DNA of 64,000 nt from Gammaproteobacteria bacterium MOLA455 (GTDB lineage: Bacteria > Pseudomonadota > Gammaproteobacteria > Pseudomonadales > Porticoccaceae), in NCBI GenBank assembly GCA_000511875.1, contig AZIN01000001.1, forward strand, positions 1,619,332 to 1,683,331, given 5' to 3'. A model generated the notes under the pieces. That model was given only the letters and a program-made list of their open reading frames with translations, did no database searches and was not told the DNA's origin. Below are positions 7,400 through 54,210 of this stretch, piece after piece (the stretch's first letter is position 1; each line of letters starts with the position of its first letter). The position numbers and the translations under genes are program-made.

Positions 7400-7656
7400 C
7401 TGGTTTTTTCTGCTGTAAATTTTTCTCAACCTCAGTTCTAGGCGGCAAACCTTTGCCGACATCGCTGCCATGAGAGCCGAAGCGGTGTCAGATTGCCGAC
7501 GGCTTGCCACTGGCAATAAGCTGACGGTTTCTTGCCACTCTTTCACTAACACCTTGTATTAAAAGTAAAAAATTGGTTGGCACGCAAATTGCTAAAGTCC
7601 TATTACGCAACAAATCCAAACACATAAACGCGTCTATTGGGGAAAGGTAAGCAACC
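7400..7656 (+). promoter_or_regulatory. fleR upstream region with TTGCCG operator cluster
   Basis: A 257-bp leader. CGGCAAACCTTTGCCG (7443-7458) is a perfect inverted repeat with a 2-bp centre. A second TTGCCGAC lies at 7493-7500 and TTGCCACTGGCAA (7504-7516) is another dyad. All lie 60-150 bp upstream of the sigma-54 promoter at 7577-7593, the usual enhancer distance. The same half-site recurs upstream of flgB and flagellin 1. Confidence 0.6.
7577..7593 (+). promoter_or_regulatory. Sigma-54 promoter for fleR-fliEFGHIJ
   Basis: TTGGCACG (7577-7584), 4 bp, TTGCT (7589-7593) gives the invariant GG and GC dinucleotides exactly 10 bp apart, matching TGGCACG-N4-TTGCW. It lies about 65 bp before the fleR start and is the only clear promoter ahead of the tightly spaced genes down to fliJ. 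Confidence 0.85.
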
Positions 7657-9096
7657 GTGACTGATCACAAAATGATTGATGTTATTTGGTTCGATTCGAA
7701 TCGACCGCTATCGCCTACAGAGGTAACGACCTTTGCCGAGCTGGGTTTAGCCGTAACCCAGGCCGATATCACAGAGCCAGCGAATGCAGCACTATGCAGT
7801 GCCCAGCTGATTGTTGTGACCCTCACCCAATCAACTGATGAACTCAAAGAGTTGCAGTCGCATCTTGCGGCGGCAAACAGTTCGGCACCGATTATTGCAC
7901 GAGTCGATCGCAGCAACTTTGAGTTGGGCATTGGCGCCATGCGCGAAGGCGCACTCACCGTTATCTCTCAGAATGCCTTTAATGCCGACGAGTGGGCTGA
8001 AGTGTTAGAGCTGGCGCAGTGTCAGCCGCTAAAAAATAATTCCCAGCAAGCGTTTGTCTTTGCCGACCCAGTGAGCCGCAATTTGCTAGCGTTGGCAGAG
8101 CGAGTTGCAGAGGTGGATGTAACCGTATTAGTTACTGGACCAACAGGCGCAGGTAAAGAGGTACTGGCGCGGATTCTTCACGATGCCTCAGCGCGACATC
8201 AGGGCCCCTTTGTTGCGTTTAACTGTGCGGCTATGCCAGAGAATCTGATCGAAGATATGTTATTTGGTCACGAGAAGGGCTCTTTTACCGGCGCCTCTAA
8301 AGTGCAGCCAGGTCTATTTGAGCAGGCTCAGGGCGGCACTGTATTCCTCGATGAGATCGGCGAAATGTCATTTCATCTACAGGCCAAGCTTCTGCGCATT
8401 TTACAGGAGCGTTCAGTCGTTAGGTTGGGTGGACAAAAATCCATAGACCTCAATATCCGGGTTATTGCCGCCACCAACCGCGACCTAAAAGCGGCGATTG
8501 CGCAACAGACCTTTAGAGAAGACCTGTATTTCCGTTTGACCGCTTTTAAGTTGGCAATTCCCTCCTTGAGTGAGCGACCCAAAGATATTCTTCCCCTCGC
8601 TGAACAGTTTTTAAGTCAGCAGGGCGGCGGCGTCCAGACTCTGCGATTAACTCGCGCGGCCCAGCTCAGCCTAGAGAGCTATCGCTGGCCCGGCAATGTC
8701 CGTGAACTGCAAAATGTATTGGTGCGCGGCATGGTCTTGGCCAACGGTGCGCCGATTGATGTACAGCACTTACTATTTGATGACATTCAGCTAGCGGATA
8801 GCTTTGACAACCGCCCCAGCCAGCCACAGGAAAATCCTTTTGCCCAGTACGCCGCTTCGCGAACCGCACCAACAAAGGATAGCTCGGCTGTCTGGGCAGC
8901 ACCTCAAGTCAGTAGCGAAGGATTGAACGAAACCGTCAAGCACAGTGAGTGGCAAGCGATTATGAATGCCTTGAGTGGCACTCGCAGTCGCGAGCACGCG
9001 GCAGAGCAGCTGGGCATAAGTCCGAGAACCCTGCGCCACAAGTTACAGAGACTGCGCGAGCAGGGTATCAATGTTACCCGTGCTTATGCGCGCTAG
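7657..9096 (+). CDS. fleR: FleR/FlrC-like sigma-54 activator with degenerate receiver domain
   Basis: A 479-aa activator of sigma-54 promoters of the basal body, hook and flagellin class. Residues 1-115 resemble a receiver fold, but the phospho-acceptor Asp after the third strand appears replaced (LIVVTLTQS around T55) and the acidic pocket is reduced to FDSN. The AAA+ domain has Walker A GPTGAGKE (161-168), GSFTGA (208-213) and WPGNVREL; a Fis-type HTH (REHAAEQLGISPRTLRHKL) ends the protein. The start is a GTG with GGAAAGG 9 bp upstream. The partner kinase gene fleS, normally just upstream, is absent. The next gene, fliE, begins 12 bp after the stop. Confidence 0.9.
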   Translation: MTDHKMIDVIWFDSNRPLSPTEVTTFAELGLAVTQADITEPANAALCSAQLIVVTLTQSTDELKELQSHLAAANSSAPIIARVDRSNFELGIGAMREGALTVISQNAFNADEWAEVLELAQCQPLKNNSQQAFVFADPVSRNLLALAERVAEVDVTVLVTGPTGAGKEVLARILHDASARHQGPFVAFNCAAMPENLIEDMLFGHEKGSFTGASKVQPGLFEQAQGGTVFLDEIGEMSFHLQAKLLRILQERSVVRLGGQKSIDLNIRVIAATNRDLKAAIAQQTFREDLYFRLTAFKLAIPSLSERPKDILPLAEQFLSQQGGGVQTLRLTRAAQLSLESYRWPGNVRELQNVLVRGMVLANGAPIDVQHLLFDDIQLADSFDNRPSQPQENPFAQYAASRTAPTKDSSAVWAAPQVSSEGLNETVKHSEWQAIMNALSGTRSREHAAEQLGISPRTLRHKLQRLREQGINVTRAYAR

Positions 9097-9107
9097 AGGA
9101 GTAGATC

Positions 9108-9455
9108 ATGGTTAGTCCCGTAAATGCCGGAAATGTTGAATCCCTATTGAGTCAGATTCGACAGTACCAAGCTCAGGCCGCTCAGGGAGTCGATATCTCA
9201 TCGACCCAGCGGGTTGATGGTCAGTCTGCTACAGGCGGTGGTTTTGCCGATGCAGTCAAAGGCGCACTGAATGAAGTGAACAGCGCACAGATGCTATCGA
9301 AAGCATCGCGCACGGCCTACGAGAGAGGTGAAGATATACCCCTCACTGATGTCGTAATGAATATGCAGAAGTCATCGCTAGCCTTTGAAGCAACATTGCA
9401 GATTCGCAACAAAGTTCTCAAGGCTTACGAAGACATTATGAACATGCCCGTTTAA
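9108..9455 (+). CDS. fliE: FliE, MS-ring/rod adaptor
   Basis: A 115-aa protein of normal length. FliE sits between the MS ring and the proximal rod and is the first substrate of flagellar export. The C-terminal half (MNMQKSSLAFEATLQIRNKVLKAYEDIMNMPV) is the conserved FliE signature with its rod-like helix. It follows fleR after 12 bp with an AGGAG ribosome site and precedes fliF by 24 bp, so fleR and the basal-body genes form one operon. Confidence 0.95.
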   Translation: MVSPVNAGNVESLLSQIRQYQAQAAQGVDISSTQRVDGQSATGGGFADAVKGALNEVNSAQMLSKASRTAYERGEDIPLTDVVMNMQKSSLAFEATLQIRNKVLKAYEDIMNMPV

Positions 9456-9479
9456 AGAACGTTTAAAGAGATATAAGAA

Positions 9480-11288
9480 ATGGCAACCACAGCAGCAACT
9501 ACAACTCAGAATATGGCCCCCGCAGTAGCTGGCGCCACTGGCGCAATGGCCCAAGCTGGACAGACTCAAGTACCGGCCACTCAAGTCGCGGCGAATAACA
9601 GTGCTGGTTTGCCCAGTGTCGCTGAGATTCTTCAGCAACCTGCGGTGCGCAAAGCGATGCCAGCGATTATTGCTTTTCTAAGTGTGGCGGTCTTCCTTAT
9701 TGCCTATTCTTGGCTGCAGGACCCGCTCTATCGTGCAGTCTATCCTGGGCTCTCCGAGTCCGATCGGCAGATGGCTTTTGAGGCGCTCTCCGGAGCCGAC
9801 TTTAAAGCGCGCATCGATAGCGGCACTGGCGAGCTAAAAGTGCCCGATGACCGCTATCATGAAGCGCGAATTTTCCTAGCCTCTCGCGGTTTACCGCAAG
9901 AGGGCACAGGCGACGGTATTAGCGGCCTCACTAACGAAGCCTCGATGACCTCCAGTCAGTTTATGGAGCAGGTGCGATATGTTTCTGCCATGGAGCAGGA
10001 GCTTGCTCGCAGCATTACTCAGATCAACACCATTCGCTCTGCCCGAGTGCATTTAGCCTCACCCAAACAGAGTGTTTTTGTGCGCAACAGAACCCCGGCA
10101 AAAGCCTCGGTTGTCGTTTCGCCCTATCCTGGCAGGCAGGTTTCCCGCTCTCAGGTTGAAGCCATCACCCATATGGTCTCCTCAAGTATTCCCTATCTGG
10201 CCACGGAAGATGTAGTGGTGGTTGATCAGCGAGGCAAGCTTCTCACTGACGCCAATAATTTTGCCTCCATGCAGCTTAACTCTGCCCAAATGGAACACAA
10301 ACAGCGCCTGGAAGAGACCTATCGCAATCGTATCGACGCTCTTTTGATGCCGGTTGTTGGTATGGGCAATGTGCGCGCCGAAGTGGATATTCAAATCGAT
10401 TACACCGAAGAAGAGTCGACCTTTGAAGAGTACGACGGCAATAACAATGGACCTAAAGCACGTTCCGAAGTGCTTTCGTTAGATCAGGATGCCTCCCAGA
10501 AAGCTCAGGGTATCCCCGGCGCCACCACCAATACTATCCCAGAGGCACCCCGGACCATAGTCAATGGCCAGCTGAATGCTGACGAGAGTGGCGGAGGGAT
10601 GCGCACATCGAGCAGTACCAGCACCAGAAATTATGAAATGGACCGCACCGTCCGCCATGTTAAACGCCAGGGCGGCAGTGTCGAGCGCATCTCTGTTGCG
10701 GTGGTTATCAATGAGCCTGTGGGACAGGTCAGTGATGGAGATGATCCAGCAGCAGTGCTGGCCGCTCAGAGTTTTACCGAGCTCGAACTAGAGCGCTTTA
10801 CTGACCTGGTTAAAGGTGTTGTCGGCTATGATGGTGATCGCGGTGATGTGGTTACCATAGTCTCGGCTAAATTCGAAAAGCCCGCGCCCTTTGAGTCGGC
10901 TGTTGTCTGGTACGAAAACCATCAGATCATCAGCGCCATCAAAACCCTTGGCGCCGCGATCGTGTTTATCCTTATTCTCTTTGGCGTAGTGCGCCCAGTA
11001 GTCAAAGCCTACCTGCCAGCGGTTGATGAAAGCCTCGCTGAAGAAGCTCAGTCGAGCTCTAAAGACGGCGAACTCAATGATGAAGAAATGCGCTTGATTG
11101 AAATGGGCGACGGCGAGTCACTGGAAGATATTAAGGCCAAGTTAAAGCCGAAAAAATCCACTATATCCGCAGAAATGTTGGATACGGCAAATACCTACGA
11201 CGACAAAGTTGCGCTAGTGCGCCTGCTGGTTGCCGAAGATTCTGGTCGAGTGGCTAACGTGTTGAAGAAAATGATTCGCCCCTTATAG
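9480..11288 (+). CDS. fliF: FliF, flagellar MS-ring protein
   Basis: A 602-aa membrane protein that forms the MS ring and the housing for the export gate. An Ala/Thr/Gln-rich cytoplasmic tail (1-57) precedes transmembrane helix 1 (about 60-78). The periplasmic ring-building motifs follow (YPGLSESDRQMAFEAL, ARVHLASPKQSVFVRNR). A second helix lies around 480-502 (IVFILILFGVVRPVV). The C-terminal tail, ending VANVLKKMIRPL, is the FliG-binding peptide. Length is slightly above the usual 560, mainly from the N-terminal tail. Confidence 0.97.
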   Translation: MATTAATTTQNMAPAVAGATGAMAQAGQTQVPATQVAANNSAGLPSVAEILQQPAVRKAMPAIIAFLSVAVFLIAYSWLQDPLYRAVYPGLSESDRQMAFEALSGADFKARIDSGTGELKVPDDRYHEARIFLASRGLPQEGTGDGISGLTNEASMTSSQFMEQVRYVSAMEQELARSITQINTIRSARVHLASPKQSVFVRNRTPAKASVVVSPYPGRQVSRSQVEAITHMVSSSIPYLATEDVVVVDQRGKLLTDANNFASMQLNSAQMEHKQRLEETYRNRIDALLMPVVGMGNVRAEVDIQIDYTEEESTFEEYDGNNNGPKARSEVLSLDQDASQKAQGIPGATTNTIPEAPRTIVNGQLNADESGGGMRTSSSTSTRNYEMDRTVRHVKRQGGSVERISVAVVINEPVGQVSDGDDPAAVLAAQSFTELELERFTDLVKGVVGYDGDRGDVVTIVSAKFEKPAPFESAVVWYENHQIISAIKTLGAAIVFILILFGVVRPVVKAYLPAVDESLAEEAQSSSKDGELNDEEMRLIEMGDGESLEDIKAKLKPKKSTISAEMLDTANTYDDKVALVRLLVAEDSGRVANVLKKMIRPL

Positions 11289-11308
11289 CGCGGCGAGGAG
11301 ACAAAAAA

Positions 11309-12376
11309 ATGGCAGATCCCCAATTAAAAACCGCAGCCGTTGCAGAGCCTGTACCCATATCCGAGGCACTGCAAGCTGAACTCGACGGCATGACCACCAC
11401 AGACCGAGCGGCAGTGATAATGCTGTTGCTCGGTGAACAGCAAGCGGCCGATATTATTCGCTATCTCAGCCCGCGAGAAGTTCAGGCGCTGGGTTCAGCT
11501 ATGGTCGGTGTTGCAGATCTCTCTCAAGAGGCGGTCAATATTGTGCTCGACAATTTTGTTGTAACTATTAAGCAGCAGACCAGCTTGGGTCTGGGTACTG
11601 GCGACTATGTTGAAAAAGTCCTCAACCGAGCGCTTGGTGAAGACAAGGCGGCTACAGTACTGGGCCGAATCATGCCTGGCTCTTCGAGCAAAGGTTTAGA
11701 AATTTTGCGCTGGATGGATGCTCGCTCAATCGGCGATATGATCGGCGAGGAGCATCCTCAGGTTGTGGCTATTATTCTCTCGGTGCTGGAATATGATATT
11801 GCGGCTGATGTACTGAACTTCTTGCCCAAGGAAAATCGCGCTGAAATTATGCAGCGCGTGGCGAGTCTTGAAACAGTCCAACCATCGGCAATGGACGAGC
11901 TAGAAGGCATTATGCAGAAGCAGTTTAGCTCCAGCTCATCGGCCAAATCTTCAAGCTTTGGAGGTGTTGCCACCGCAGCGAAGATTATGAACTTCACTAA
12001 AGTGGATCTGGAAACCTCAATTATGAGTGGCGTTTCTGGTCTCGATGAAGAGCTGGCGCTGAAGATACAGGACAGCATGTTCACCTTTGACAATCTGAGT
12101 GGGGTTGATAACCGCGCTATTCAGGTGCTGATGCGCAGCGTTGAGTCGGATCTATTGATGACTGCACTGAAAGGTGCCGATGAAGAAGTTCGAGAGAAAT
12201 TCCTCGACAATATGTCCCAGCGCGCGCGGGTTATGTTCCTCGATGACATGGAAGCCAAAGGACCGATCAGAATCACCGATGTGGAAGATGCGCAGAAGAC
12301 TATTATGCGTCTTGCTCGAGTGCTCTCGGATAAAGGTGAGCTGGTACTCGCTGGACGAGGGGATGACTTTGTCTAA
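11309..12376 (+). CDS. fliG: FliG, motor switch/torque protein
   Basis: A 355-aa C-ring protein linking the MS ring (N-domain), FliM (middle domain, EEHPQVVAIILS motif at about 147-158) and the stator (C-domain). The torque helix keeps its alternating charges (REKFLDNMSQRARVMFLDDME). An N-terminal extension of about 20 residues precedes the conserved DRAAVIMLLLGE. A GAGGAG site precedes the ATG. The 3' end overlaps fliH by 14 bp, suggesting translational coupling. Confidence 0.97.
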   Translation: MADPQLKTAAVAEPVPISEALQAELDGMTTTDRAAVIMLLLGEQQAADIIRYLSPREVQALGSAMVGVADLSQEAVNIVLDNFVVTIKQQTSLGLGTGDYVEKVLNRALGEDKAATVLGRIMPGSSSKGLEILRWMDARSIGDMIGEEHPQVVAIILSVLEYDIAADVLNFLPKENRAEIMQRVASLETVQPSAMDELEGIMQKQFSSSSSAKSSSFGGVATAAKIMNFTKVDLETSIMSGVSGLDEELALKIQDSMFTFDNLSGVDNRAIQVLMRSVESDLLMTALKGADEEVREKFLDNMSQRARVMFLDDMEAKGPIRITDVEDAQKTIMRLARVLSDKGELVLAGRGDDFV

Positions 12377-15143: not shown

Positions 15144-15218
15144 ATCACAGTCGAGTTGCGGACACACTTTAACGCTACCTAGGCCAGTTAACGCTTAAGC
15201 CTGCCGCCTGTCGGTTTA

Positions 15219-15235: not shown

Positions 15236-15279
15236 AATATCCTCTGTAACTACGATATGGCACAGGACTAAAAGCGAAA

Positions 15280-16806
15280 ATGCTTGAATCAAAAAATATT
15301 CTACTGGATATAGGTAGAGCCCAAAATATAGATCATGCGGGCCCTGCAGGGTTTTCCCAAGACGCTGCAGCAGAAAAGCCAGAGCAATTTTCAGCGTTGC
15401 TTGGGGCTGCAGTGGGGAAATTTAAAGCGGCCGAAAGCGGCAACAAAACGCCGCTTTCGGCCCAGCAGTCAGCTGCTGCTGACTCAAAGCTCTCAGGCCT
15501 GCTATCAACTCGGGTCCTGCAGGGTGGCACCGCTCTTATAGTTGCTGGTCCCGAGCCCACTGACGCTGGCCTGCTGGCCTTTGCGCGCGCTCAGGGCATA
15601 GATCCTGAAGCCCTGGGGTTAGCCGCCGCAGAAACGCCGCAACAGTCTGGCGCTACCCTTAATGCAGCAGCATTTAAGGCCGATACAGTCCTATCTGAAA
15701 GCGCTAGTAGTTCGAGCGCTGCTAACAAAGAGACCACACCCAGCAACCTGATGATAAGGGCACTGAGCCCTGGCGCCGATACGTCATCTATAGCTATCCA
15801 AGAGCTGGCAGCTAAGACTGTCTCAAAGAGCGCCGACCTCGACAACCCGATGTTGACAATAAATCCAAATGCAGCGAAAGCAGTGCCGCAGCGACCCCTT
15901 CTCGAGAGCAAATTTCTCAGCCCTCAGCAGCACCTAAGCAGTGCGCGCCACAGCAACCTAGCCAGCGTCGGCGATGACGCCTCAACGGCTGCGCTCAAGC
16001 CTCATGAAGCCGCCAACACAGATAAAAAAACACTGCATATAAAGGCTGAAACAACAATTAGCAGTGGTAGACTAGAAGCCGGCGCAGCGTCCCTTGACGG
16101 TGGTTCAGTCGCCACTATAGCTAGCCAATTGAAGATTGGGCCAAAGATGGCTGAGGAATTCTTACAGCGATACCGACATCGTCAGAATTTAGCGCCGACA
16201 AAAATGGATGTCATCAATCTTCCCGAGGTCAAGGCTTTAACTGCCAGTGCATCATCGGCGCTCAGCTCGGCGCCGCTGTTTGCTGAGGCGACGGCAACCA
16301 TTGGCGCCGCTGCCAGCATGAAGTCGGACCTATCGGCAGCAGCGCCGGCGGAGGATGCGCGGCAGGAGATGCTGCGCAGGCAGGACGACTACACACAGCT
16401 GTCGCGGCAACTGACCGATGCCTTGGGCAAGCGTCTCACTGCACAGATTCAGCGCGGCTCCTGGCACGTTGAAATGGAACTGCACCCAAAGAGTTTAGGG
16501 CGCGTGGAAGTCCAGTTGGAAATGAAAAATGGTGAGCTGGAAGCGCGCTTTATCGCCGCTAACGCCACCACAAGAGACCTGATCAACGAGGGCATGCCTA
16601 GATTGCGTGAGGCATTTCAAGAACATGGCACGGAAACTGCTTATAAGGATTTAGGAGCGGCAAACCAGGGTGCGCATGACGGAAAGCCGACAGCCTCTGG
16701 CAATGGTGCCCCAGGATCAGATAAACGGCTAGACCCAGATGGTGAGGGTTTCAGCGCGAAAAATAGCCAGCAGCTTTCAGCTGATGGCTTGGATGTACTA
16801 GTTTAA
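15280..16806 (+). CDS. fliK: FliK, hook-length control protein
   Basis: A 508-aa protein: a long, low-complexity Ala/Ser-rich N-terminus (about 1-360) that acts as the exported ruler, then the conserved hook-length control domain (about 385-460: QRGSWHVEMELHPKSLGRVEV, MKNGELEARF, INEGMPRLREAF). This domain contacts FlhB to switch export from hook to filament substrates. A second protein with this domain is encoded at 34078. First gene after a sigma-54 promoter; the ribosome site is weak (AGGA about 12 bp away). Confidence 0.93.
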   Translation: MLESKNILLDIGRAQNIDHAGPAGFSQDAAAEKPEQFSALLGAAVGKFKAAESGNKTPLSAQQSAAADSKLSGLLSTRVLQGGTALIVAGPEPTDAGLLAFARAQGIDPEALGLAAAETPQQSGATLNAAAFKADTVLSESASSSSAANKETTPSNLMIRALSPGADTSSIAIQELAAKTVSKSADLDNPMLTINPNAAKAVPQRPLLESKFLSPQQHLSSARHSNLASVGDDASTAALKPHEAANTDKKTLHIKAETTISSGRLEAGAASLDGGSVATIASQLKIGPKMAEEFLQRYRHRQNLAPTKMDVINLPEVKALTASASSALSSAPLFAEATATIGAAASMKSDLSAAAPAEDARQEMLRRQDDYTQLSRQLTDALGKRLTAQIQRGSWHVEMELHPKSLGRVEVQLEMKNGELEARFIAANATTRDLINEGMPRLREAFQEHGTETAYKDLGAANQGAHDGKPTASGNGAPGSDKRLDPDGEGFSAKNSQQLSADGLDVLV

Positions 16807-29389: not shown

Positions 29390-31495
29390 TTAATTCTCTT
29401 CATCTATGCTGACTGTGGCCACAACCTTTACCGACTGATCTTCAGGAATCTCGCTGTAGGAGAGAACCGTGAGATCTGTCAGTCTGTGGCGAATAATTTT
29501 TGACAGCCACGGGCGTATTCCCGGCGACACTACCAGCACTGCTGGGAGCCCTTGATTTTCAACTTCCTGAGTGTTTTCAGCGAGGGCTTTAAACAGCCCC
29601 TCGGCCAGCTTTGGCTCAATAATCAAACCCTGATTAGTGCTGCTTTGCTGCAATACGTTATGCAGCATTTGCTCGAGAGAGGGCTCCAGTGTGATCACTG
29701 GCAAGCTGTCATTAATCTCCACCAGGCCCTGCACAATCATGCGCCCGAGTCGTGGTCGCACAGCTGCGGTTAACTCGTCTGCATCCTGAGTGCGACTGCT
29801 CTCGGTGGCTAGCACTTCAATAATGGTGCGCATATCGCGCACCGAGACAGACTCATCGAGAATATTTTGTAGGACTTTGGTAATGGTCGCCAAAGGCAGT
29901 TTTCCGGGTACCAGGTCTTCGACTAATTTAGGCGCTCGCGCCGCGACCTTATCGAGCAGCTGCTGGGTTTCGTCATGGCTGAGTAGCTCTGAAGAATTGC
30001 CGCGCAGCAAGGTATTGAGGTGGGTGGCAATGGCAGTAGCCGAGTCGACAACGGTGTAGCCTAGGGTTCGAGCATAGTCACGCTGGCTCGGGTCGATCCA
30101 TATTGCGTCTAAGCCAAAGGCCGGCTCTTTGGTGGCTGTGCCCTCCAGCTTGCCGTGCACCTGTCCGGGGTTAATGGCCATCTCGCGGCCAACTTTGATT
30201 TCGCCTTTGCCTCGCACTACGCCGTTCATCACTATGTGATAGACATCTGGTGCCAGATCTAAATTGTCGCGAATACGAATCGGCTGGATCAAAAAGCCGA
30301 GTTCAGCCGAGAGCTTTTTGCGTACACCTTTGACTCTGGTTAAAAGTTGGCCGCCGGCATCTGCATTGACAAGAGGGATAAGTCCGTAGCCAATATCCAA
30401 GCCTACAAGGTCAACTTGATCCACATCGTCCCAGCCCAACTCTTCAGTATTGGCCTTTGCGGTCTCGATAGTGGCGGCATCCATGGTAACCGTCAATTCG
30501 CGCTTTTGAGCGCTCTGAGCGAGGGCATAGGCGAGTACAGCAGAGCCAATGCCGAGGCTTAAAAACATCAGATGGGGCATCCCCGGTACTAGGCCGAGAA
30601 GAACCAAAATACCAGAGGCAACAAAGAAGGCCATGGGATTATTGAGCTGAGTCTTGGCCTGGTCAGACATTGATTCTGAGGTGGTCACTCGAGTGACAAT
30701 AATGGCGGTGGCGAGTGACAGCAGCAGCGACGGAATCTGGGCAACCAGACCGTCACCAATAGTCAGCAGCACATAGATGCGGCCAGCCTCGGAGAATGTC
30801 AGGTCGTGTTGGCCGATACCGATAATCAGACCGCCAACAATATTAATAATTAAAATCAGTAGTCCAGCGATGGCATCACCGCGAACAAATTTCGAGGCAC
30901 CGTCCATAGAGCCGAAAAAGTCTGATTCCTGAGTAATCTCTTCGCGCCGAAACTTGGCTGTCTCCTGATCAATAACGCCGGCATTTAGGTCCGCATCAAT
31001 GGCCATCTGCTTGCCGGGCATGGCGTCGAGGGTAAAGCGAGCTATGACCTCGGATACTCGTCCAGCACCTTTGGTGACAACGATAAAGTTAATGATCATT
31101 AAAATCGAAAAGATAATAAATCCAACTAAATAGTTGCCAGCAATAACAAATTCGCCAAAGGCTTCGATAACCTTGCCTGCAGAATCTGGGCCCTCGTGCC
31201 CTTTGACCAAGACCAGTCGCGTTGAGGCGACATTGAGTCCAAGCCGCAACATGGTGGCCAACAGCAGGATCGATGGAAAGGATGAAAAGTCGAGAGGCTT
31301 GGAGCTATTGATGGCGACCATGATGATGACTAGGCCAATAATAATATTGAAGGTAAACAGAAAATCTAATAAAAACGCCGGCAAGGGCAGAATCAGCATC
31401 GAAATAATCAGCAATACCAGCGCTGGAACGCCCAGGCTCGAGAGTTCGATTCTCGACATATCCTGACGTATGTTTGACAGTATTGCTGAAGCCAT
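29390..31495 (-). CDS. flhA: FlhA, export-gate protein
   Basis: A 701-aa protein of normal length: about eight transmembrane helices in the first 330 residues, including the FHIPEP-family signature region (SKPLDFSSFPSILLLATMLRLGLNVASTRLVL). The FlhA cytoplasmic domain that docks chaperone-substrate complexes follows, ending in the linker and C-terminal tail. First gene of the leftward flhA-flhF-flhG-fliA unit behind a sigma-54 promoter. Confidence 0.97.
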   Translation of the reverse strand: MASAILSNIRQDMSRIELSSLGVPALVLLIISMLILPLPAFLLDFLFTFNIIIGLVIIMVAINSSKPLDFSSFPSILLLATMLRLGLNVASTRLVLVKGHEGPDSAGKVIEAFGEFVIAGNYLVGFIIFSILMIINFIVVTKGAGRVSEVIARFTLDAMPGKQMAIDADLNAGVIDQETAKFRREEITQESDFFGSMDGASKFVRGDAIAGLLILIINIVGGLIIGIGQHDLTFSEAGRIYVLLTIGDGLVAQIPSLLLSLATAIIVTRVTTSESMSDQAKTQLNNPMAFFVASGILVLLGLVPGMPHLMFLSLGIGSAVLAYALAQSAQKRELTVTMDAATIETAKANTEELGWDDVDQVDLVGLDIGYGLIPLVNADAGGQLLTRVKGVRKKLSAELGFLIQPIRIRDNLDLAPDVYHIVMNGVVRGKGEIKVGREMAINPGQVHGKLEGTATKEPAFGLDAIWIDPSQRDYARTLGYTVVDSATAIATHLNTLLRGNSSELLSHDETQQLLDKVAARAPKLVEDLVPGKLPLATITKVLQNILDESVSVRDMRTIIEVLATESSRTQDADELTAAVRPRLGRMIVQGLVEINDSLPVITLEPSLEQMLHNVLQQSSTNQGLIIEPKLAEGLFKALAENTQEVENQGLPAVLVVSPGIRPWLSKIIRHRLTDLTVLSYSEIPEDQSVKVVATVSIDEEN

Positions 31496-31567: not shown

Positions 31568-31583
31568 AGCAATATCTGTGCCA
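31568..31583 (-). promoter_or_regulatory. Sigma-54 promoter for flhA-flhF-flhG-fliA
   Basis: On the minus strand TGGCAC (31578-31583) and TTGCT (31568-31572) place GG and GC exactly 10 bp apart, matching TGGCACG-N4-TTGCW. It is about 73 bp upstream of the flhA ATG and faces away from the sigma-28 promoter of flgP. Confidence 0.8.
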
Positions 31584-31674: not shown

Positions 31675-31701
31675 TAAAGGCTGGCGCCGAACTGCCGATG
31701 G
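31675..31701 (+). promoter_or_regulatory. Candidate sigma-28 promoter of flgP-flgT
   Basis: TAAAGGCT (31675-31682), 11 bp, GCCGATGG (31694-31701) matches 6 of 8 positions in each FliA element with the exact spacer. It lies about 111 bp before the flgP ATG. Confidence 0.7.
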
Positions 31702-37576: not shown

Positions 37577-37629
37577 GGGCCGAGTATGAGTGTAGATCGA
37601 GGGTGACGCAATACCGACATAGTGGCAAT

Positions 37630-37665
37630 TGCCGGTGGCAAGACTGTGCCGAAAAAGCGGCAAAG
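37630..37665. promoter_or_regulatory. TTGCCG operator cluster between flgA and flgB
   Basis: Two dyads, TTGCC-GGT-GGCAA (37630-37642) and TGCCG-AAAAAG-CGGCA (37648-37663), lie 84-119 bp upstream of the flgB sigma-54 promoter. The half-site and distance match those at fleR and flagellin 1. Confidence 0.6.
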
Positions 37666-37748: not shown

Positions 37749-37765
37749 TTGGCATCGCTTTTGCA
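37749..37765 (+). promoter_or_regulatory. Sigma-54 promoter for the flgB operon
   Basis: TTGGCATC (37749-37756), 4 bp, TTGCA (37761-37765) gives GG-N10-GC. It lies about 95 bp before the flgB ATG; the genes that follow to flgJ, and perhaps further, are closely spaced. Confidence 0.85.
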
Positions 37766-44566: not shown

Positions 44567-44587
44567 GCGGTTGCAGGAGATAGCTTT

Positions 44588-46210: not shown

Positions 46211-46296
46211 GTTCGCGTTAGCAGTGATTGACAAAAGATAAGTACTTAACAAAAAGCACTTTATAACAAGCACTAAGCACATTTAAGGAGGGGACT

Positions 46297-49200
46297 ATGG
46301 CAGATATTCTATCGATCGGAGCAGGCGCTACTCAGTTGTATCGTCAGGCCCTTTCAACTGTCGGTAATAATATTGCCAACCTCAATACTGAGGGCTATTC
46401 GCGGCAGGTAACCGAGACGTCGGAGAATGCGCCGAGCCAGCAGGGTACGGTATTTGTCGGCTCCGGTGCGCGCCTGGCCAATATCGAACGGGCCTATGAC
46501 GAATTTGCCGAGTCGAGTCTGCGTGACAGTGGCAGCAAGTTGGCCACTCAGCAACCGATGATTGACTACGCCAACCGCGTAGTTGACATTATGGGTTCTG
46601 AGGCCTCAGGTCTCTCCAGTGCCATGGACCAGTTTTTTGCCTCCGCCAGTGCGCTCAGCTCCGACCCCGCATCAATTAATTTACGCAGTAATTTTCTTCG
46701 TGATGCCGACGGCATGACCGCACGCTTTCGCGAATTATCGGGCCAGCTCAACGCTGTTGAAATCGAAACTCGCGAGAACATTGATATACAGATCGGCAGC
46801 TTAAACAGCCTCTCTGACAAACTCGCTTTCGTCAATCGCCAGCTCAACAAAAAACTCACCCTCGACAGTCAGCCGCCAATGTTGCTCGATCAGCGCGACC
46901 AGTTGTTGCGGGATATGTCAGCGGTAACCAAGATTCATGTTACAGAGGCTACCTCCGGTCAGGTGCAGGTGCGTCTGGGTAGCAGTGCTGGCAGCCTTAT
47001 CGCCGACAGCAAGACCGCCTATGATCTGGGTGCCGCTTTTAGTGAAAGCGACCCAGGTCGTGTGGATCTGATTATCGAACCCTACGGTGATCGGCGCGCG
47101 GCCAGTGTGGTGAGCAGCGGCACCCTCGGTGGACTGCTAAACTTCCGCACCCAGACACTCTCTCCGGCCATGGATAGCTTTGACTATTTAGCGCAAACGC
47201 TGGTTGCCGAAGTCAATCAGATTCATAACGCCGGTCTCGATGGACGCGGTGAGCCAGGTACTGATCTGTTTGCTATAGATCCGATTTTTGATATCACTGC
47301 TGCAGCGGGAAACAACAATGCCAGCTTAGAGGTTCAGGTCACAGACCCTGAAGCCTTTGACTATGCGCCCTTTCGTGTCACCTGGGTCAGCGAGCAGAAT
47401 AGCTGGCGCATTGAAGATTTAAGCAGCGGTGCCATCACCCAAGCGGCCCCAGGGTCGAGCAACTTTGACTACGCTGGGCTCAATATCTCTGTGGACAGCA
47501 TGCCTCTGGATGGCGAGAGCTATACCATCACTCCTCTGACGCGACCTGCTAGCGGCATTCGTATTGTTCAGACCGATCCGCTGTCAGTTGCCACTGGCGA
47601 CACCATGCGGGTTATGAGCGACTTCACCAATCTCGGCACGGCAACCGCAAGTCTGGAACAGATTAGCGTCGACCAAAACGCCACCTTTGATTTTGGCAAG
47701 GCTATAAATAGTCTCGGCAATAACCCCAGTGCGGCTGCCGGTGAAGCGATAGCGGCGAATTATTTATCCCCTGCCTTCGTTATTCCCCAGGGCAGTACCC
47801 AGACATCACTGATGATGGAAGTACCCTATGACAGCGATCTCAGTTTTCAGGTGATGACCGCTGACGCAGTGCATCTTCTGGGTCACAGCCTCGATCAAGC
47901 TCAGCAGGCGACCTTGGTTTCTGGTGATTCCGGATTTAACAGTGCTAGTAGTTACAGCGCCTCGTACCTCAATGCCACAGGCTCAGATGCCTATCTGGAT
48001 ATGCAGTTGACCTATGGCTTTTTGGCCAGTGAAGTTGAGCGCAAAGACTGGCAGGTGAGTGACACTGGCATTACCGATGCCTTTGAGATTACCACCATCC
48101 CTGCATCAGCGGCGTCAGACCGCGTGCGCCTTCAGGACAATGAATCCTCGGTGGCGATTGATTTGATCAGTGCAAATGCGCTGGTCTTAAACGGTACCTC
48201 GCTATCTAACCTTTCCTTGGCGGCCGGGCAGACAACATCTGCGGCGGCCATGGCCAGCTGGTTAAACAGCGCCTCGCCAGCCACTGGGGTCAGCGCAACG
48301 GCGAGCAATATTATTGAGCTCGATGCCGAAGGCATCGACTTTACCCAGCAGTTGACCATCAACAACGTCACCATTGGTGATGGCTCTCTGTTGACCTCGG
48401 CCGACCAGTTGGCGAATGCCATCAACCTGGTCACAGCTAACACCAATGTGGTTGCCACTGTGACCCCAGATAACCGCTTGCAGCTGACGAATTCTGTGGG
48501 TTTCGAGGGCGCCAATATTACTCTGGGCAACCCGGATGCCTCGTCTACCAGCAATGCTCTGGGTCAGAAAAACACCACCTTTAGCGGACAGCTTGAGTTG
48601 CAGGGTGCTGAAGAAATTCGCTTCACCTTTGGCGACGATGGGCGGCCAGCTGATTTAGCTGTACTGGGTCTGCGCACCGGCATCTATGTGAATGGCCCGG
48701 TAACCGAAGATCTCGCCGTTTTTGTTACCGGCAGTGGCAGCGCCTCAGTGGCGGCAGGCTTTGGTGCAACGGACAAAAATGCTGTCGCCGCGAGTCAGCA
48801 ACAGCCGTTCACGATCAAATTTTTATCTGATACGGAATACAGTATTACTGATAACCTCAGCGACACTGTTGTCGCCACCCGCAGCTACAGCTTGGGTGAT
48901 GATATTGTCCATAACGACATGCTTGTGGCGCTTCAGGGCATACCTCAGGCAGGCGACCGCTTTAATATCGAGAGCAATGCCGACGGTATTGGCGACAACG
49001 GCAATATCCGTCGCATAGTTGAACTGCAAGACAAGCCGCTGTTGGACGACGGGCGCACCTTTAGTGAGTCCTATATCACTCTGGTTGGTAGCGTTGGCAG
49101 CAAAGCCGCCCTGGCAATGATGTCTAAGGAAGCCATGCAGGTGGTCTTCGACCAGGCAGTGGCCTCAAAAGACCAGATTTCCGGAGTCAGCTTAGATGAG

Positions 49201-49302: not shown

Positions 49303-49313
49303 GGAATTGACTG

Positions 49314-50234
49314 ATGAAAGTCTCAACCAGCCAAATATTTGAGCGTGCCACTACCCAGATGGCCCAGCAGCAGTCGAAAGTCGCCACAATGCAAACTCAG
49401 CTGGCAACCGGCAAGCAGGTTCTTCGACCCAGCGACAGCCCGGAGCAAGCGGGCATGATTCAACGTCTGAGTAGCGCCTTAAATCGCCAGGATGTTTACA
49501 GCAGCAACCTGGATGCGATCAACAGTCGTTTGGGTGCTGAAGAAGCGGCACTGATGAGTTCTGAGGATATTATGCAGCGGGTTCGCGAGCTCGCCGTGCA
49601 AGCTAGCAGCGACACCATGTCTGTTGCTGACCGCAAAATTATTGCCTCGGAGGTGACAGCCTTGCGGGATCAGCTGCTATCTCTGGCCAATGCTCAGGAT
49701 GTCTCTGGTAACTATGTTTTTTCAGGCTCTATGGTCAGAGACCAACCTTTTACTGAAGACGCCGCGGGCAACTTGGTTTATCAGGGTGACCAAAATCGTA
49801 TGCTGGTAGATGTTTCCGATCAACGTCAGCTGGCGCTCAATCGCCCTGGCAATGAGGTGTTCTCCAGTGTGATTCGTGAAACCGATAGCGTCAGTGAGCG
49901 AGTTGGCTTTTTCCAAGTGATCGATGATTTTAATGCCGCCCTGCTCAACCAAGATTCTGGACAACTGCAGAACAGCCTTGCGGAAGTCAGTGAGCTAACC
50001 CTGAATATAGCGGTCTCTATCGCCGATGTCGGTAGTCGCCTGCGCATCAGCGAGCTGCAAAGCGATAGCCTAGCTGACGCTAAGCTTCGCTATCAGGCAT
50101 TGCTGTCCGGTGCCGAAGATTTAGATTACGCCACTGCCATTACCCAGCTGACTTCTGAAATTATGTCACTGGAAGCAGGGCAGAGCAGCTTTGCAAAAAT
50201 TTCCCAGTTGACATTATTTGACTATATCCGCTAA
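49314..50234 (+). CDS. flgL: FlgL, hook-filament junction protein 2
   Basis: A 306-aa protein with a flagellin-like N-terminus (MKVSTSQIFERATTQMAQQQSKVATMQTQLATGKQVLRPSDSPEQA) and C-terminus (LDYATAITQLTSEIMSLEAGQSSFAKISQLTLFDYIR). Slightly shorter than many FlgL. It joins FlgK to the filament. It starts 11 bp after flgK. Confidence 0.96.
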   Translation: MKVSTSQIFERATTQMAQQQSKVATMQTQLATGKQVLRPSDSPEQAGMIQRLSSALNRQDVYSSNLDAINSRLGAEEAALMSSEDIMQRVRELAVQASSDTMSVADRKIIASEVTALRDQLLSLANAQDVSGNYVFSGSMVRDQPFTEDAAGNLVYQGDQNRMLVDVSDQRQLALNRPGNEVFSSVIRETDSVSERVGFFQVIDDFNAALLNQDSGQLQNSLAEVSELTLNIAVSIADVGSRLRISELQSDSLADAKLRYQALLSGAEDLDYATAITQLTSEIMSLEAGQSSFAKISQLTLFDYIR

Positions 50235-50267
50235 CGCACCCCCGAATTGAAAAGCGAGACAGTATAG

Positions 50268-51698
50268 ATGGCCGAAGTCACCGCAGCCGATAGCCCCACA
50301 GCACAGATTATGAAGACTCTGGGCGCTGGCTCAGGAATCAACATCACCGAATTGGCGCAGAACCTAACCGATGTGGACAAGGCGCCACGCCAAGAAAAAA
50401 TCGACGCCGCGGTCGCCGCTACGGAAGCCAAAATTTCTGCCTACGGTTTAATTTCCTATCAGGTCAGCCTGCTGCAAAGCGCCTTTGAAGCACTCAATGA
50501 TGCTGACGAATTGGCCACTAATACAGCCAGCTCCAATGACCCAGCTGTGAGCCTTAATAGTGTCGATGGCACCTCAGAAGCCGGCTCTCATATTATTGAA
50601 GTAACCCAGCTGGCGCTTGAGCAGCGGGTAAAGTCCGCCGAGTACAGCACCTCCACCACTAGCCTCAATTCCGGCAGCGCTTTTGATATTGCCTTTGCTG
50701 TAGGTGCCACCAGCACCACTAGCAGCACTGTGACGGTGGAAGTCGATACTCCAGAAGGGGTCGTCAGTGCGATTAACGATGCCGATATGGGTATCACCGC
50801 GAGCCTGATCGATACGGGTATTGCCGGCGCCAACTACCGCATTGTGCTCAGTGGAGCCACTGGCAGCGAAGGGGCTTTTAGCGTTTCTTCGACTCCTGAT
50901 TTGGGTTTTGCTACCCCGGCTAATAGCTTGCAGTCAGCCCAGGATGCGAGTCTTGAGTTTAACGGTCTGGCGGTTACTCGCAGCAGTAACGAGGTGTCGG
51001 ATCTGATTACTGGGGCCACGCTGACATTAAATGCGGTCACCTCCTCGGCGGCGCGGTTAACCGTCAGCAGTGATAAAAGCACTCTAAAGACCGGCATTGA
51101 AAATGTTGTGACGGTCTACAATGATTTTCGCGACATTATGGATACCTTTGTTAAGGCGCCTCAGGAAGATGTTGAATTCAGTGGTGCACTGCAGCGTGAT
51201 CTCGCCGTTGCGCGGCATGTTATGGAGCAGGTGCGAACCTCATTGTTTGACGATTCCTCCACCGCCTCTGGAGATATAACCGGGCTGCGGGATATAGGTG
51301 TCAGTGTTGATCAGAAAGGTCGCCTCACCTTTGATGAGGATGACTACGATAGCGCCATTGCCGATGATTACGATGATGTGGTGATGATGCTAACCGCCAA
51401 TACCAGCGATCAAAATCTCTATGGCACCGCCGCAAAAGGTTTAGCTCAGGATATAGCCACCACTCTTGAGAGTCTCACTGACAGTGACAGTCTGTTGGCT
51501 ACCAGAGAGGCCAGTGCCGAAGTGGCGTTGGAAGACTATCAAGAGCAGTTAGAAGAGTTAGAGCTGCGTATGGCAGCAGTATACGATCGCTACCTCGGCC
51601 AATTTGCCACTATGGAATCCATGGTTGAGCGTCTCAATGGCACCAGAGAATATCTTGAAGGGCAGCTGGAATCTCTATCTAAGGCATATGATAACTAA
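50268..51698 (+). CDS. fliD: FliD, filament cap protein
   Basis: A 476-aa protein with the FliD N-terminal block (GAGSGINITELAQNLTDVDKAPRQEKIDAAVAATEAKISAYG), a Ser/Thr-rich middle that includes the FliD signature, and a C-terminal coiled region (EVALEDYQEQLEELELRMAAVYDRYLGQFATMESMVERLNGTREYLEGQL). It caps the filament and folds exported flagellin. It follows flgL by 33 bp; the flagellin chaperone fliS is far away. A clear terminator follows. Confidence 0.95.
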   Translation: MAEVTAADSPTAQIMKTLGAGSGINITELAQNLTDVDKAPRQEKIDAAVAATEAKISAYGLISYQVSLLQSAFEALNDADELATNTASSNDPAVSLNSVDGTSEAGSHIIEVTQLALEQRVKSAEYSTSTTSLNSGSAFDIAFAVGATSTTSSTVTVEVDTPEGVVSAINDADMGITASLIDTGIAGANYRIVLSGATGSEGAFSVSSTPDLGFATPANSLQSAQDASLEFNGLAVTRSSNEVSDLITGATLTLNAVTSSAARLTVSSDKSTLKTGIENVVTVYNDFRDIMDTFVKAPQEDVEFSGALQRDLAVARHVMEQVRTSLFDDSSTASGDITGLRDIGVSVDQKGRLTFDEDDYDSAIADDYDDVVMMLTANTSDQNLYGTAAKGLAQDIATTLESLTDSDSLLATREASAEVALEDYQEQLEELELRMAAVYDRYLGQFATMESMVERLNGTREYLEGQLESLSKAYDN

Positions 51699-51729
51699 AT
51701 TAGTTCGCCTTGAATCGCAGACAGTAAAG

Positions 51730-51753
51730 ACCCGCATATTGTGCGGGTTTTTT
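51730..51753 (+). terminator. Rho-independent terminator after fliD
   Basis: CCCGCA (51731-51736), short loop, TGCGGG (51742-51747) and a run of six T on the plus strand, 32 bp after the fliD stop. It ends the long flgB-fliD block. Confidence 0.85.
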
Positions 51754-51761
51754 ATATCCGG

Positions 51762-51791
51762 TTTTTCACTTTTCACTTTTCACTTTTCACT
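51762..51791. repeat. Four tandem copies of a 7-bp unit (TTTTCAC)
   Basis: TTTTCAC is repeated four times without interruption between the fliD terminator and the terminator of the converging flagellin gene. No coding overlap. It is a simple microsatellite, prone to slippage. Confidence 0.85.
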
Positions 51792-51859
51792 CAGCGCTCA
51801 GCTCTGAGAAGAGTCAGTTTAAGCCACTGAAGAGTCAGTAATAGAAAACAACAGATAAT

Positions 51860-51888
51860 AAAAAAACCCGACTCATAGAGCCGGGTTT
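51860..51888 (-). terminator. Rho-independent terminator of flagellin 2
   Basis: On the minus strand AAACCCG(G)CTC, loop, GAGTCGGGTTT is followed by a T-run (A-run at 51860-51866 on the plus strand). It lies 33 bp after the stop of the flagellin gene. Confidence 0.85.
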
Positions 51889-51920
51889 GCTTTACTGCGG
51901 TGTAGCTGGTGATGTCTATA

Positions 51921-52775
51921 TTACTTAAGCAGTGCCAGAACAGACTGAGCCTGCTGGTTAGCTTGAGATAACATAGCTGTACCCGCCTGCTGAATGATCT
52001 GAGTACGTGCCAGCTCAGTGGTTTCAGCAGCGTAGTCGGCATCAGCGATACGGCTCATCGAGGCAGAGGTATTCTGAGAAATATTTCTCAGGTTATCAAC
52101 TGTGTACTCGAGGCGATTCATCACAGCACCGAAAGTAGCGCGCTGAGTGGTTACGCCAGAGATAGCCGTATCCAGTGTTGTGATGACGTTGGCTGTTGAT
52201 GTGTCAATAGTCGTTGTAGCGGCAGCCATACCGCTAATATCAGCGCCCATTACACCAGCCACGCCATCGGCCAGATTAAAATCATTGAAATCGACGACGA
52301 TTGTTTGGCCGTCGTTAGCACCAATTTGATAGGTGAAAGAGCCTGTTGTGCCACCAGAGCCGTCGAGAATATTTTCGCCATTCCACTGAGTAGCGTCGAC
52401 TATACGATCAATTTCTTCGGCCAGAGCTTTGAATTCAAGATCGAGGTTTGAAACATCGTCGGTAGTGTTACTGTTGCTGGTTGCCTGAACAGCCAGTTCA
52501 CGCATACGTTGCAGCATGTTAGTGATTTCGATCGCTGCGCCATCCGCTGTTTGTAGCATGGAGATTGCGTCGTTGGCATTTCGTGCTGCTTGGTCAAGAC
52601 CTTTAACCTGAGCATTTAAACGCTGGCTAATCGCAAGACCAGCTGCATCGTCAGCCGCTGAGTTGATGCGTTTACCGGTAGAAAGACGTTCCATTGCTGT
52701 GTTCATTGCACGTTCGTTTTTCGCCAGTGAGTTGGCCGTAATCGTAGCGCCGATGTTTGTATTGATAACAGTCAT
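51921..52775 (-). CDS. fliC: Flagellin 2
   Basis: 284 aa from the ATG at 52775 (GAGG 8 bp upstream, MTVINTNIGATITANSLAKNERAM); an upstream ATG in frame is unlikely. N-terminal D0/D1 ([52 protein letters not shown]) and C-terminal D1/D0 ([41 protein letters not shown]) are complete; the variable domain between is short (about 110 residues). Preceded by a sigma-28-type promoter, unlike flagellin 1. Confidence 0.95.
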   Translation of the reverse strand: MTVINTNIGATITANSLAKNERAMNTAMERLSTGKRINSAADDAAGLAISQRLNAQVKGLDQAARNANDAISMLQTADGAAIEITNMLQRMRELAVQATSNSNTTDDVSNLDLEFKALAEEIDRIVDATQWNGENILDGSGGTTGSFTYQIGANDGQTIVVDFNDFNLADGVAGVMGADISGMAAATTTIDTSTANVITTLDTAISGVTTQRATFGAVMNRLEYTVDNLRNISQNTSASMSRIADADYAAETTELARTQIIQQAGTAMLSQANQQAQSVLALLK

Positions 52776-52857
52776 TATAAAATCCTCAAAAAAATCATTA
52801 AGTTTCTTCGTCACGTTGCCAAGATTACATTCGCTTTCTGGCGCGTCCGTAACCTAT

Positions 52858-52884
52858 ACATCGACATGACTTACAAATACTTAA
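52858..52884 (-). promoter_or_regulatory. Candidate sigma-28 promoter of flagellin 2
   Basis: On the minus strand TTAAGTAT (52877-52884), 11 bp, GTCGATGT (52858-52865). The spacer is exact; six of eight and five of eight bases match the FliA consensus. It ends about 82 bp before the ATG. Confidence 0.55.
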
Positions 52885-52938
52885 ACCCTGATTGAGAAAA
52901 TATTCTATCTTTGACTAGATCTGTCTATTTAGCAGCAC

Positions 52939-52974
52939 AAAAAAACGCCACGCCAGTTGCCTGGAGTAGCGTTT
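52939..52974 (-). terminator. Rho-independent terminator of flagellin 1
   Basis: On the minus strand AACGC-TACTCCAG, GCAA loop, CTGGCGTG-GCGTT then a run of T (A-run 52939-52945). It lies about 50 bp after the flagellin 1 stop. Confidence 0.8.
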
Positions 52975-53022
52975 GTGAACCCCTGTAGCTAAGCGGCTGG
53001 GAGTTGCTATATAAGAAAGGCT

Positions 53023-53892
53023 TTAACCCTTCAATAGCTGCAATACAGACTGCGCAGACTGGTTTGCCTGAGCCAGCATTGCGGTACCCGCTTGCTGAAT
53101 AATCTGCGTGCGTGCTAACTCTGTTGTTTCGATAGCATAGTCAGCATCTTCAACTCGACTGCGTGAGGCGGCCGCGTTTTGCGACACATTGGATAAATTA
53201 TCGACAACATATTCAAGGCGGTTCATCGCTGCACCATAAGAGGCGCGCTGCGTATTAATGCCGTTAATGGCAGTATCAATTTTTGCCAGAGCTGCAGCTG
53301 CATCTGTGGAGGTGCTAAGGCTAATGCCTACAGCAGATATATCATTAGCGGCGCCACCATTGCTGAAGACACCTGCGCCAGTGGTCGCCCAGTCGCCCAG
53401 GTCGACAGAGATTGTCTGACCTGCATTAGAGCCTACTTGAAACGACACTACGCCGTCTGCAAGTGTACCTGCACTACCGTCGAGTATATTTTCTCCGTTC
53501 CACTGAGTAGTAGTGGAAATTCGAGCGATTTCTGACTGCAGCGCGACAAATTCGACGCTGAGGTTAGATCTATCTGTGGCGGTGTTGGTTTCGGTAATTG
53601 ATTGAATAGCTAGCTCGCGCATTCTCTGCAGCATATTGGCCACTTCAATCGAAGCACCATCTGCCGTTTGAATCATGGCGACAGCATCATTGGCATTTCT
53701 TGCAGCCTGATCTAGCCCTTTGATCTGCGCTGTCATACGCGCTGAGATGGCTAGGCCAGCGGCATCGTCTGAAGCCGAGTTGATACGCTTGCCGGTGGAC
53801 AGTCGTTCCATTGCCTGACCCATAAGTCGATCATTTTTGGCTAAGGCGTTCTGGGTAATAGTTGCACCCACATTTGTATTAATAACAGTCAT
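53023..53892 (-). CDS. fliC: Flagellin 1
   Basis: 289 aa from the ATG at 53892 (AGAGGAA 6 bp upstream, [24 protein letters not shown]); the frame extends 87 bp further upstream without flagellin homology. Complete D0/D1 regions flank a short variable domain. It is close to flagellin 2 (same [16 protein letters not shown] and [14 protein letters not shown] blocks), so a tandem duplication. It is served by a sigma-54 promoter with the TTGCCG enhancer cluster upstream. Confidence 0.95.
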
Positions 53893-54059
53893 TGCAAATT
53901 CCTCTTTATTCTTTTGATCGGCTGCCTTTAATAAAAGCGTTGCGCAACCGGGATCGTTAGGCTCATTTAGCTCAACCACTGAGCCAGTGATAAGCCTAAA
54001 AATTTACCAATTGCCGCCCTGCTGCCTGTTGGCATTTTGACGACTCACGGACAAGAAAT

Positions 54060-54076
54060 TGCAATACTGATGCCAA
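54060..54076 (-). promoter_or_regulatory. Sigma-54 promoter of flagellin 1
   Basis: On the minus strand TTGGCATC (54069-54076) and TTGCA (54060-54064) place GG and GC exactly 10 bp apart. It lies about 168 bp upstream of the flagellin ATG, giving a long leader. Confidence 0.85.
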
Positions 54077-54169
54077 GTTTTAATTTTTCCACGAAAAAAA
54101 TTAAAAGGTGTTTTTAAACAATGGCTTATGAGTTTTTGGTGCTGCGGAGTTTTGCTTAAAAAAGGTATG

Positions 54170-54210
54170 GCGGCATATCCTTGCCGCAGTATTTGCCGCA
54201 AGATTGCCGC
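54170..54210 (-). promoter_or_regulatory. Phased TTGCCGC cluster upstream of flagellin 1
   Basis: GCGGCA-TATCCT-TGCCGC (54170-54187) is a perfect 6-bp inverted repeat. TTGCCGC then recurs at 54181, 54193 and 54204, i.e. at 12- and 11-bp steps, close to one helical turn. The cluster is 94-134 bp upstream of the sigma-54 promoter, a normal enhancer position. Confidence 0.65.

Follow-up and report, generated by a model that had tools for sequence, protein, structure and literature searches.

In Pseudomonas, the flagellar gene fleR is a class II gene under FleQ, and class III transcription depends on FleR (passages of PMC8036289). In Caulobacter, passages of three papers describe FlbD as a sigma-54 activator that acts on rod, hook and flagellin genes through short promoter elements termed ftr and whose receiver domain lacks key phosphorylation residues (PMC3930126, PMC3096577, PMC7064773); no cognate kinase is known for it (PMC3096577, PMC7064773). 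In Vibrio cholerae, the flagellin gene flaA is sigma-54- and FlrC-dependent; the FlrC sites are true enhancers that as a rule lie downstream of the start, and the phosphorylated residue of FlrC is D54 (passages of PMC6504787). Here we analyze the flagellar cluster of Gammaproteobacteria bacterium MOLA455 in a window of 64,000 nucleotides, by which we mean the whole stretch of DNA studied (positions 1619332-1683331, G000:C1, of a 2.6 Mb assembly), and two dyads found around its sigma-54 promoters: box R, built on TTGCCG (CGGCAA-N4-TTGCCG, often with extra half-sites), and box Q, TGTCR-N6-YGACA. Judged from sequence, these two related 16-bp dyads probably serve the sigma-54 flagellar regulon as the operators of FleR (box R) and FleQ (box Q). 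Because the FleR of the window is 97% identical to a protein from a Porticoccaceae metagenome-assembled genome (MAG) and 82% identical to the FleR of HTCC2207, we place the source genome in the SAR92 clade.

According to an earlier note on this DNA, the sigma-54 promoters of fleR, flgB and flagellin 1 share an upstream TTGCCG operator, which a FleR- or FleQ-like activator was inferred to bind. The GG-N10-GC promoters of these three genes, at 7578 (+), 37750 (+) and 54075 (-), were borne out by reading and by script. We scored sigma-54 promoters with a weight table of our own making (threshold 18.5) and box Q at no more than one mismatch. The features concerned are as follows, with the strand where one was assigned:

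7443-7458: box R dyad CGGCAAACCTTTGCCG upstream of fleR; rank 1 with the box R matrix, and the only perfect N4 dyad among those of the genome
7486-7501, plus strand: box Q TGTCAGATTGCCGACG, at -92 of the fleR promoter, one mismatch; overlaps a TTGCCG at 7493
7504-7516: dyad TTGCCACTGGCAA upstream of fleR; perfect, built on TTGCCA
7511-7526, plus strand: second box-Q-like site TGGCAATAAGCTGACG, at -67 of the fleR promoter, two mismatches here
7578-7593, plus strand: fleR sigma-54 promoter TGGCACGCAAATTGCT, GG-N10-GC
16626-16641, plus strand: fliL sigma-54 promoter, within the 3' end of fliK, from the promoter scan
16677-16692, plus strand: box Q TGACGGAAAGCCGACA, at +51 of the fliL promoter, one mismatch
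31464-31479, minus strand: box Q inside the start of flhA, at +104 of the flhA promoter, one mismatch
31568-31583, minus strand: flhA sigma-54 promoter TGGCACAGATATTGCT, from the promoter scan
37604-37619, plus strand: box Q TGACGCAATACCGACA, at -146 of the flgB promoter, identical in 8/8 clusters
37624-37663: box R array before flgB (GGCAATTGCC, GGCAAGACTGTGCC and CGGCAA), from reading, conservation and hexamer count
37750-37765, plus strand: flgB sigma-54 promoter TGGCATCGCTTTTGCA, GG-N10-GC
54060-54075, minus strand: flagellin 1 sigma-54 promoter TGGCATCAGTATTGCA, GG-N10-GC
54170-54210: box R array of flagellin 1, with the dyad GCGGCATATCCTTGCCGC at 54170-54187 and TTGCCG half-sites at 54193 and 54204; matrix rank 2
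54213-54228: box Q TGTCGGAATCTCGTCA, at -153 of the flagellin 1 promoter, one mismatch

Box R appears to be a real, conserved operator that reaches beyond the source genome. We located flgB promoters by anchoring on FlgC in relatives, in the genomes behind the Burkholderiales FleR loci and in an even sample of the phylum (40 regions), and counted hexamers (TTGCCG or CGGCAA) from -150 to -15 of the sigma-54 promoter. At least two half-sites precede this promoter in 16/16 cases in SAR92, 22/25 in Burkholderiales and 9/11 in other Pseudomonadales. In the phylum sample, they were found in 12 of the 25 regions with a sigma-54 promoter versus 1 of the 15 without one. Shuffled sequences predict 0.13-0.38 such promoters per set. 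In the window and its relatives, GGCAA half-sites lie near -126, -113 and -91 of flgB, G020 being without the first. N4 dyads (CGGCAA-N4-TTGCCG with at most one outer base missing) stand at 22/25 Burkholderiales flgB promoters, 3/25 of the phylum sample, 2/16 of SAR92 and 1/11 of other Pseudomonadales, and this spacing accounts for 25 of the 51 convergent pairs in the sets other than SAR92. Outside the class, family f72, which we guess to be alphaproteobacterial, has at least two hexamers at 9/14 flgB promoters and N4 dyads at 8/14; the family is not a random draw, since further members were added once a dyad had been seen in one of the first two, and L253 and L254 enter both this count and the phylum sample. 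The f72 genomes carry FlbD-like activators, with 0 of the 16 genomes searched over the FlbD cut-off.

Left out of the flgB counts were L165 (no upstream sigma-54 site scoring 18.5), L178-L184 and L213-L214 (secondary or fragment matches), L166 (GGCAA-N4-TTGCCG at -165, beyond the counted range) and L175, L193 and L212, which have no sigma-54 site scoring at least 18.5; L175 shows TTGCC half-sites upstream of a weaker promoter. L209 (UBA4475) was counted separately, with 0 hexamers; it has a GGCAA-N4-TTGCC at -150 to -141 and no 11-of-12-type dyad closer to the promoter. Three sigma-54 flgB promoters without an upstream array (L240, L241 and L244) have GGCAA downstream, at +23 to +49, a placement like that of the downstream enhancers bound by FlrC in Vibrio.

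The hexamers are also notable for where they lie. At least two precede 3 of the 6 flagellar sigma-54 promoters versus 1.7% of 135-bp background windows, and the hexamer is missing from 5/5 of the remaining perfect sigma-54 sites in the genome. Three or more within 65 bp occur four times in 400 kb of background; the eight flagellar stretches hold 13 such clusters, 12 of them just before fleR, flgB or flagellin 1 (the thirteenth lies elsewhere, at 47046-47077 of G011, and G020 is without any). A box R matrix trained solely on 24 Burkholderiales dyads, with the 400 kb as background, ranks the fleR site at 7443 first in the window (23.5), flagellin 1 at 54171 second (19.0) and flgB at 37636 fifth (11.6). 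Only the first two exceed the background maximum of 15.9, and ranks 3 (15438) and 4 (5094) fall away from all of these promoters. The hexamer taken alone has 65 copies on the plus strand and 54 on the minus strand of the window, and it is rarer between open reading frames (ORFs; 0.65/kb over 24.6 kb) than overall (1.28/kb), so the equal frequency in intergenic DNA that the earlier note had named as a counter-indication was not seen. Perfect CGGCAA-N1..5-TTGCCG dyads number nine genome-wide, against one in a reversed-sequence control and about two per spacing by our hexamer-rate estimate, and only that at 7443 has the N4 spacing. Because nine across five spacings is near this chance estimate, a lone dyad is not significant, and we rejected isolated perfect dyads as evidence.

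Several details of the earlier claim survived inspection and others had to be redrawn. The perfect TTGCCG dyad at 7443-7458 was found both by reading and by script, and flagellin 1 does have TTGCCGC at 54181, 54193 and 54204 (steps of 12 and 11 bp), with GCGGCA-N6-TGCCGC at 54170-54187. The site at 7504-7516 is a perfect dyad, but its core is TTGCCA rather than TTGCCG. What had been described as a single perfect dyad at 37630-37663 is instead GGCAATTGCC at 37624-37633, with TTGCCG at 37629 and CGGCAA at 37658. The 11/12-bp helix phasing of the flagellin 1 sites is genuine, yet the four relatives compared do not preserve the spacing. The weaker versions placed near the fliK and flhA promoters were rejected, as they amount to 0 and 1 hexamers, respectively, in the 135 bp scanned upstream; the flhA hexamer, at -55, is missing there from the seven relatives shown, and G021 has one at -132. 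A conserved ATCGGCA near flhA reads as part of an opposite-strand sigma-28-like promoter. This promoter, TAAA-N15-GCCGAT at 31675-31699 (+), has what we take to be the sigma-28 form; it precedes an LPP20-lipoprotein gene (31813) divergent from flhA, and the strict pattern precedes that gene in 5/8 clusters.

The idea of one operator common to all three promoters holds in part. A strong sigma-54 site was found in 33/33 fleR loci, and a TTGCCG or CGGCAA hexamer lies upstream of it in 26/33 (none in L050, L051, L055-L058 and L089). The N4 TTGCC-type dyad of 7443, with at most one outer base lost, occurs in 5/33 loci (L031-L034 and L060), all of them close relatives. Because many of the TTGCC words at fleR overlap box Q (-92 and -67), the 'TTGCCG operator' at fleR in SAR92 is partly box Q. 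The GGCAA at the start of fleR in the SAR92 loci was rejected as a site, being coding sequence (GTG GCA AA.).

Box Q recurs at fixed places. At fleR it lies at -92 in 6/8 clusters and at -67 or -66 in 6/8, with at least one site in 8/8. It is found at -146 or -147 of flgB in 8/8 clusters, inside flhA at +104 to +117 of the promoter in 8/8, at +51 of fliL in the 6/6 clusters having FliL, and at -144 to -153 of flagellin 1 in 4/5. The 400 kb of background contain 0 perfect and 29 one-mismatch boxes; further one-mismatch matches fall inside genes of the clusters. Because perfect boxes are rarer in the genome than in the reversed-sequence control, the case for box Q rests on this fixed position and not on genome-wide enrichment. 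Both perfect copies of the genome are on contig C4 (331215 and 473216), outside the flagellar cluster. A match at -11 of the fliK promoter of the window is missing from relatives and is not claimed. In G019, a sigma-54 site before fliM (11407), perhaps the counterpart of the fliL promoter, is without box Q at one mismatch or fewer.

As for which activator reads which box, the two forms separate by promoter in Burkholderiales. R dyads stand at 22/25 flgB promoters versus 0/42 fleR promoters; the latter have at least two R hexamers in 5/42 cases and box Q in 16/42, and many others show the form TGTCG-N6-CGTCG, two mismatches from box Q, for which no background rate was computed. Since fleR is FleQ-controlled and class III is FleR-dependent in Pseudomonas, this separation fits box R to FleR and box Q to FleQ. 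The FleR- or FleQ-like activator of the earlier note, which agrees with the position, clustering and wide conservation of the sites, can tentatively be sharpened to FleR for the TTGCCG dyad and FleQ for the second one. The helix-turn-helix (HTH) segment around LGISPRTL is near-identical in the three FleR groups. In the proposed mechanism, a FleR/FlbD-type activator would bind box R upstream of the flgB rod-hook operon and flagellin 1 and, in close relatives of the window, also upstream of fleR itself; once bound, it would oligomerise, loop to sigma-54 RNA polymerase and drive class III transcription. A receiver-less FleQ would bind the boxes Q that precede fleR and those that follow the fliL and flhA promoters; box Q also lies next to the R arrays of flgB and flagellin 1. 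We infer the protein-to-box assignment, the oligomerisation, the looping and the kinase-independent control.

At flgB (8/8) and flagellin 1 (4/5), box Q adjoins the R array, the TTGCCG and YGACA half-sites are alike, and hybrid forms occur at fleR. FleQ and FleR may then both bind the arrays, competing or cooperating on composite enhancers, with R and Q not being separate operators. We consider this unlikely, as the two forms separate by promoter in Burkholderiales and the N4 spacing is fixed for TTGCCG pairs. It is rather improbable that FleQ is the single regulator reading all TTGCC-type sites, with FleR binding elsewhere or adding little specificity. The overlap of TTGCC words with box Q at fleR and the same layout of both dyads speak for it, as do the FleQ relatives (52-57% identity) in 22 of the 23 Burkholderiales genomes searched, but fleR, the expected FleQ target, is where R dyads are missing in this order while flgB has them, and flhA and fliL carry box Q with no R array. 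Absence of FleQ from Burkholderiales, read from the fleR neighbourhoods, had served as an argument for assigning box R to FleR; it was dropped because of those relatives, which leave absence unusable against FleQ. A chance origin, or service to some unrelated DNA-binding protein, we regard as very improbable, since although the hexamer is common (119 copies/64 kb) and isolated dyads are near their estimated chance rate, the five other perfect sigma-54 sites of the genome have no hexamer, and arrays before flgB are frequent across the phylum with a sigma-54 promoter, 1/15 without one, and fixed in their N4 spacing.

Although we favour FleR as the reader of box R and FleQ as that of box Q, several observations weigh against this assignment. 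The rows compared are related and the counts are thus not independent, and the phylum-sample counts were taken irrespective of FleR presence in each genome. Fewer than two half-sites were found at 13/25 flgB promoters of the phylum sample, 2/11 of other Pseudomonadales, 3/25 of Burkholderiales and 5/14 of f72, the N4 dyad stands at only two of the 16 SAR92 promoters, and the flgB site of the window scores within the background range of the matrix. The FleQ relatives of Burkholderiales count here as well, as does the presence of box Q at class III promoters. Over the whole genome, perfect box Q shows no enrichment (2 copies versus 25 in the reversed-sequence control), and its likeness to the Pseudomonas aeruginosa FleQ consensus is to the form that we presume for the latter.

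The two activators are encoded by adjacent genes:

6242-7399, plus strand: FleQ-like sigma-54 activator, receiver-less (P0002), with Sigma54_activat and HTH_8 matches; named by position and similarity
7657-9096, plus strand: FleR/FlbD-like activator with a degenerate receiver (P0001), with PF00158 and PF02954 matches

There is no kinase ORF between them, neither protein has a Pfam match to a receiver domain, and the phospho-aspartate column of the window FleR holds Thr. This aspartate was found in none of 34 SAR92-type and 46 Burkholderiales rows and in 9/9 rows of other Pseudomonadales, six of whose genomes have a confirmed FleS. A FleS query retrieved full-length relatives at E<=1e-81 in 8/8 Pseudomonadales positives, among them the genome that supplied the query. 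In nine SAR92 genomes, eight Burkholderiales genomes, G048 and G276 it retrieved weak kinase matches at most (the best at 5.6e-26). Control of the window FleR would presumably come from its abundance, from a partner or from occupancy of the DNA. In a tree, support of 100/99 separates the nine Asp-bearing rows from SAR92, Burkholderiales and four others, a split subject to a long-branch caveat. FlgC identity to that of the window is 58-67% for the Burkholderiales matches (46% in G084) and 37-49% for other Pseudomonadales (62% in G048). Because FlgC and FleR are closer to Burkholderiales than to most other Pseudomonadales, the flagellar cluster (~6.2-54.7 kb) appears to group with a system of the Burkholderiales type. 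This may reflect a transfer between SAR92 and freshwater Burkholderiales, or else a donor common to both.

The order of the cluster is the same in 7/7 relatives examined, two of them partial views. FlgB, FlgC, FlhA, FliE, FlhB and FliA of the window exceed their family-model cut-offs, and family-model matches also name flagellins, FlaG, FliD, FlgA, FliL, FlgM and FlgN; the fliK label comes from position and a weak family match, and that of fleN from position only. Because flagellin family matches begin at residues 29-33 of the flagellin 1 ORF (53023-53979, minus strand), its real start is probably ~30 codons inside. FleR was found at E <1e-90 in 20 of 35 genomes of the genus, and G003 and G018 (98% complete) are also without FlgC, which suggests that part of the genus lost the flagellum. 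The MAG JAQXEN has two SAR92-type fleR loci (L031 and L060, 97% and 85% identical to the window FleR) and is perhaps a mixed bin.

As far as our searches go, the N4 form and breadth of box R, the occurrence of box Q alongside it and a setting without the kinase are apparently new; no published FleR box was found in the passages of literature searched, and a prior description is possible. A concrete operator would allow FleR-type regulons to be predicted in many unstudied polar flagellates. Box R would also offer a way to test directly how class III is switched on in lineages with FleR but without FleS, the signal for the shift from class II to class III being described as unclear even in Vibrio (a passage of PMC6504787). 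Two similar dyads for two paralogues, if true, would make a clean system for the divergence of activator specificity. More speculatively, and with some doubt on our part, Proteobacteria may share an old two-operator code in which the paralogues FleQ and FleR/FlbD read 16-bp dyads of the same layout (TGTCRA- and CGGCAA-like half-sites around N4), with most of the difference between them in the outer bases. The SAR92 and Burkholderiales branch might have lost the kinase and the phosphorylation of the receiver while keeping the code, and come to use composite Q/R enhancers, with class III timing set by FleQ/FleR occupancy and not by a two-component signal.

Compared with the Pseudomonas cascade of FleQ and FleS-FleR, the locus has the same gene order, fleQ then fleR, but no FleS match, a FleQ without receiver and a FleR without the phospho-aspartate. 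Against the P. aeruginosa FleQ box in its presumed form, half-sites here are often TGTCG or TGACG, and the placement of box Q both upstream and downstream of promoters agrees with the title of a 2002 study by Jyot et al. Unlike what passages on V. cholerae FlrC describe, the R arrays lie upstream and FleR is missing the aspartate; box R and the FlrC sites may nevertheless be of one kind. The same may hold for box R and the Caulobacter ftr elements. Against the FlbD model NF050807 the window FleR scores 338.8 bits, far under the cut-off of 750, and FlbD is controlled by FliX according to passages on Caulobacter, FliX not having been searched for in the window. In its putative promoter elements before rod, hook and flagellin genes, its degenerate receiver and the lack of a FleS match, the FleR of the window resembles FlbD as the passages on Caulobacter describe it.

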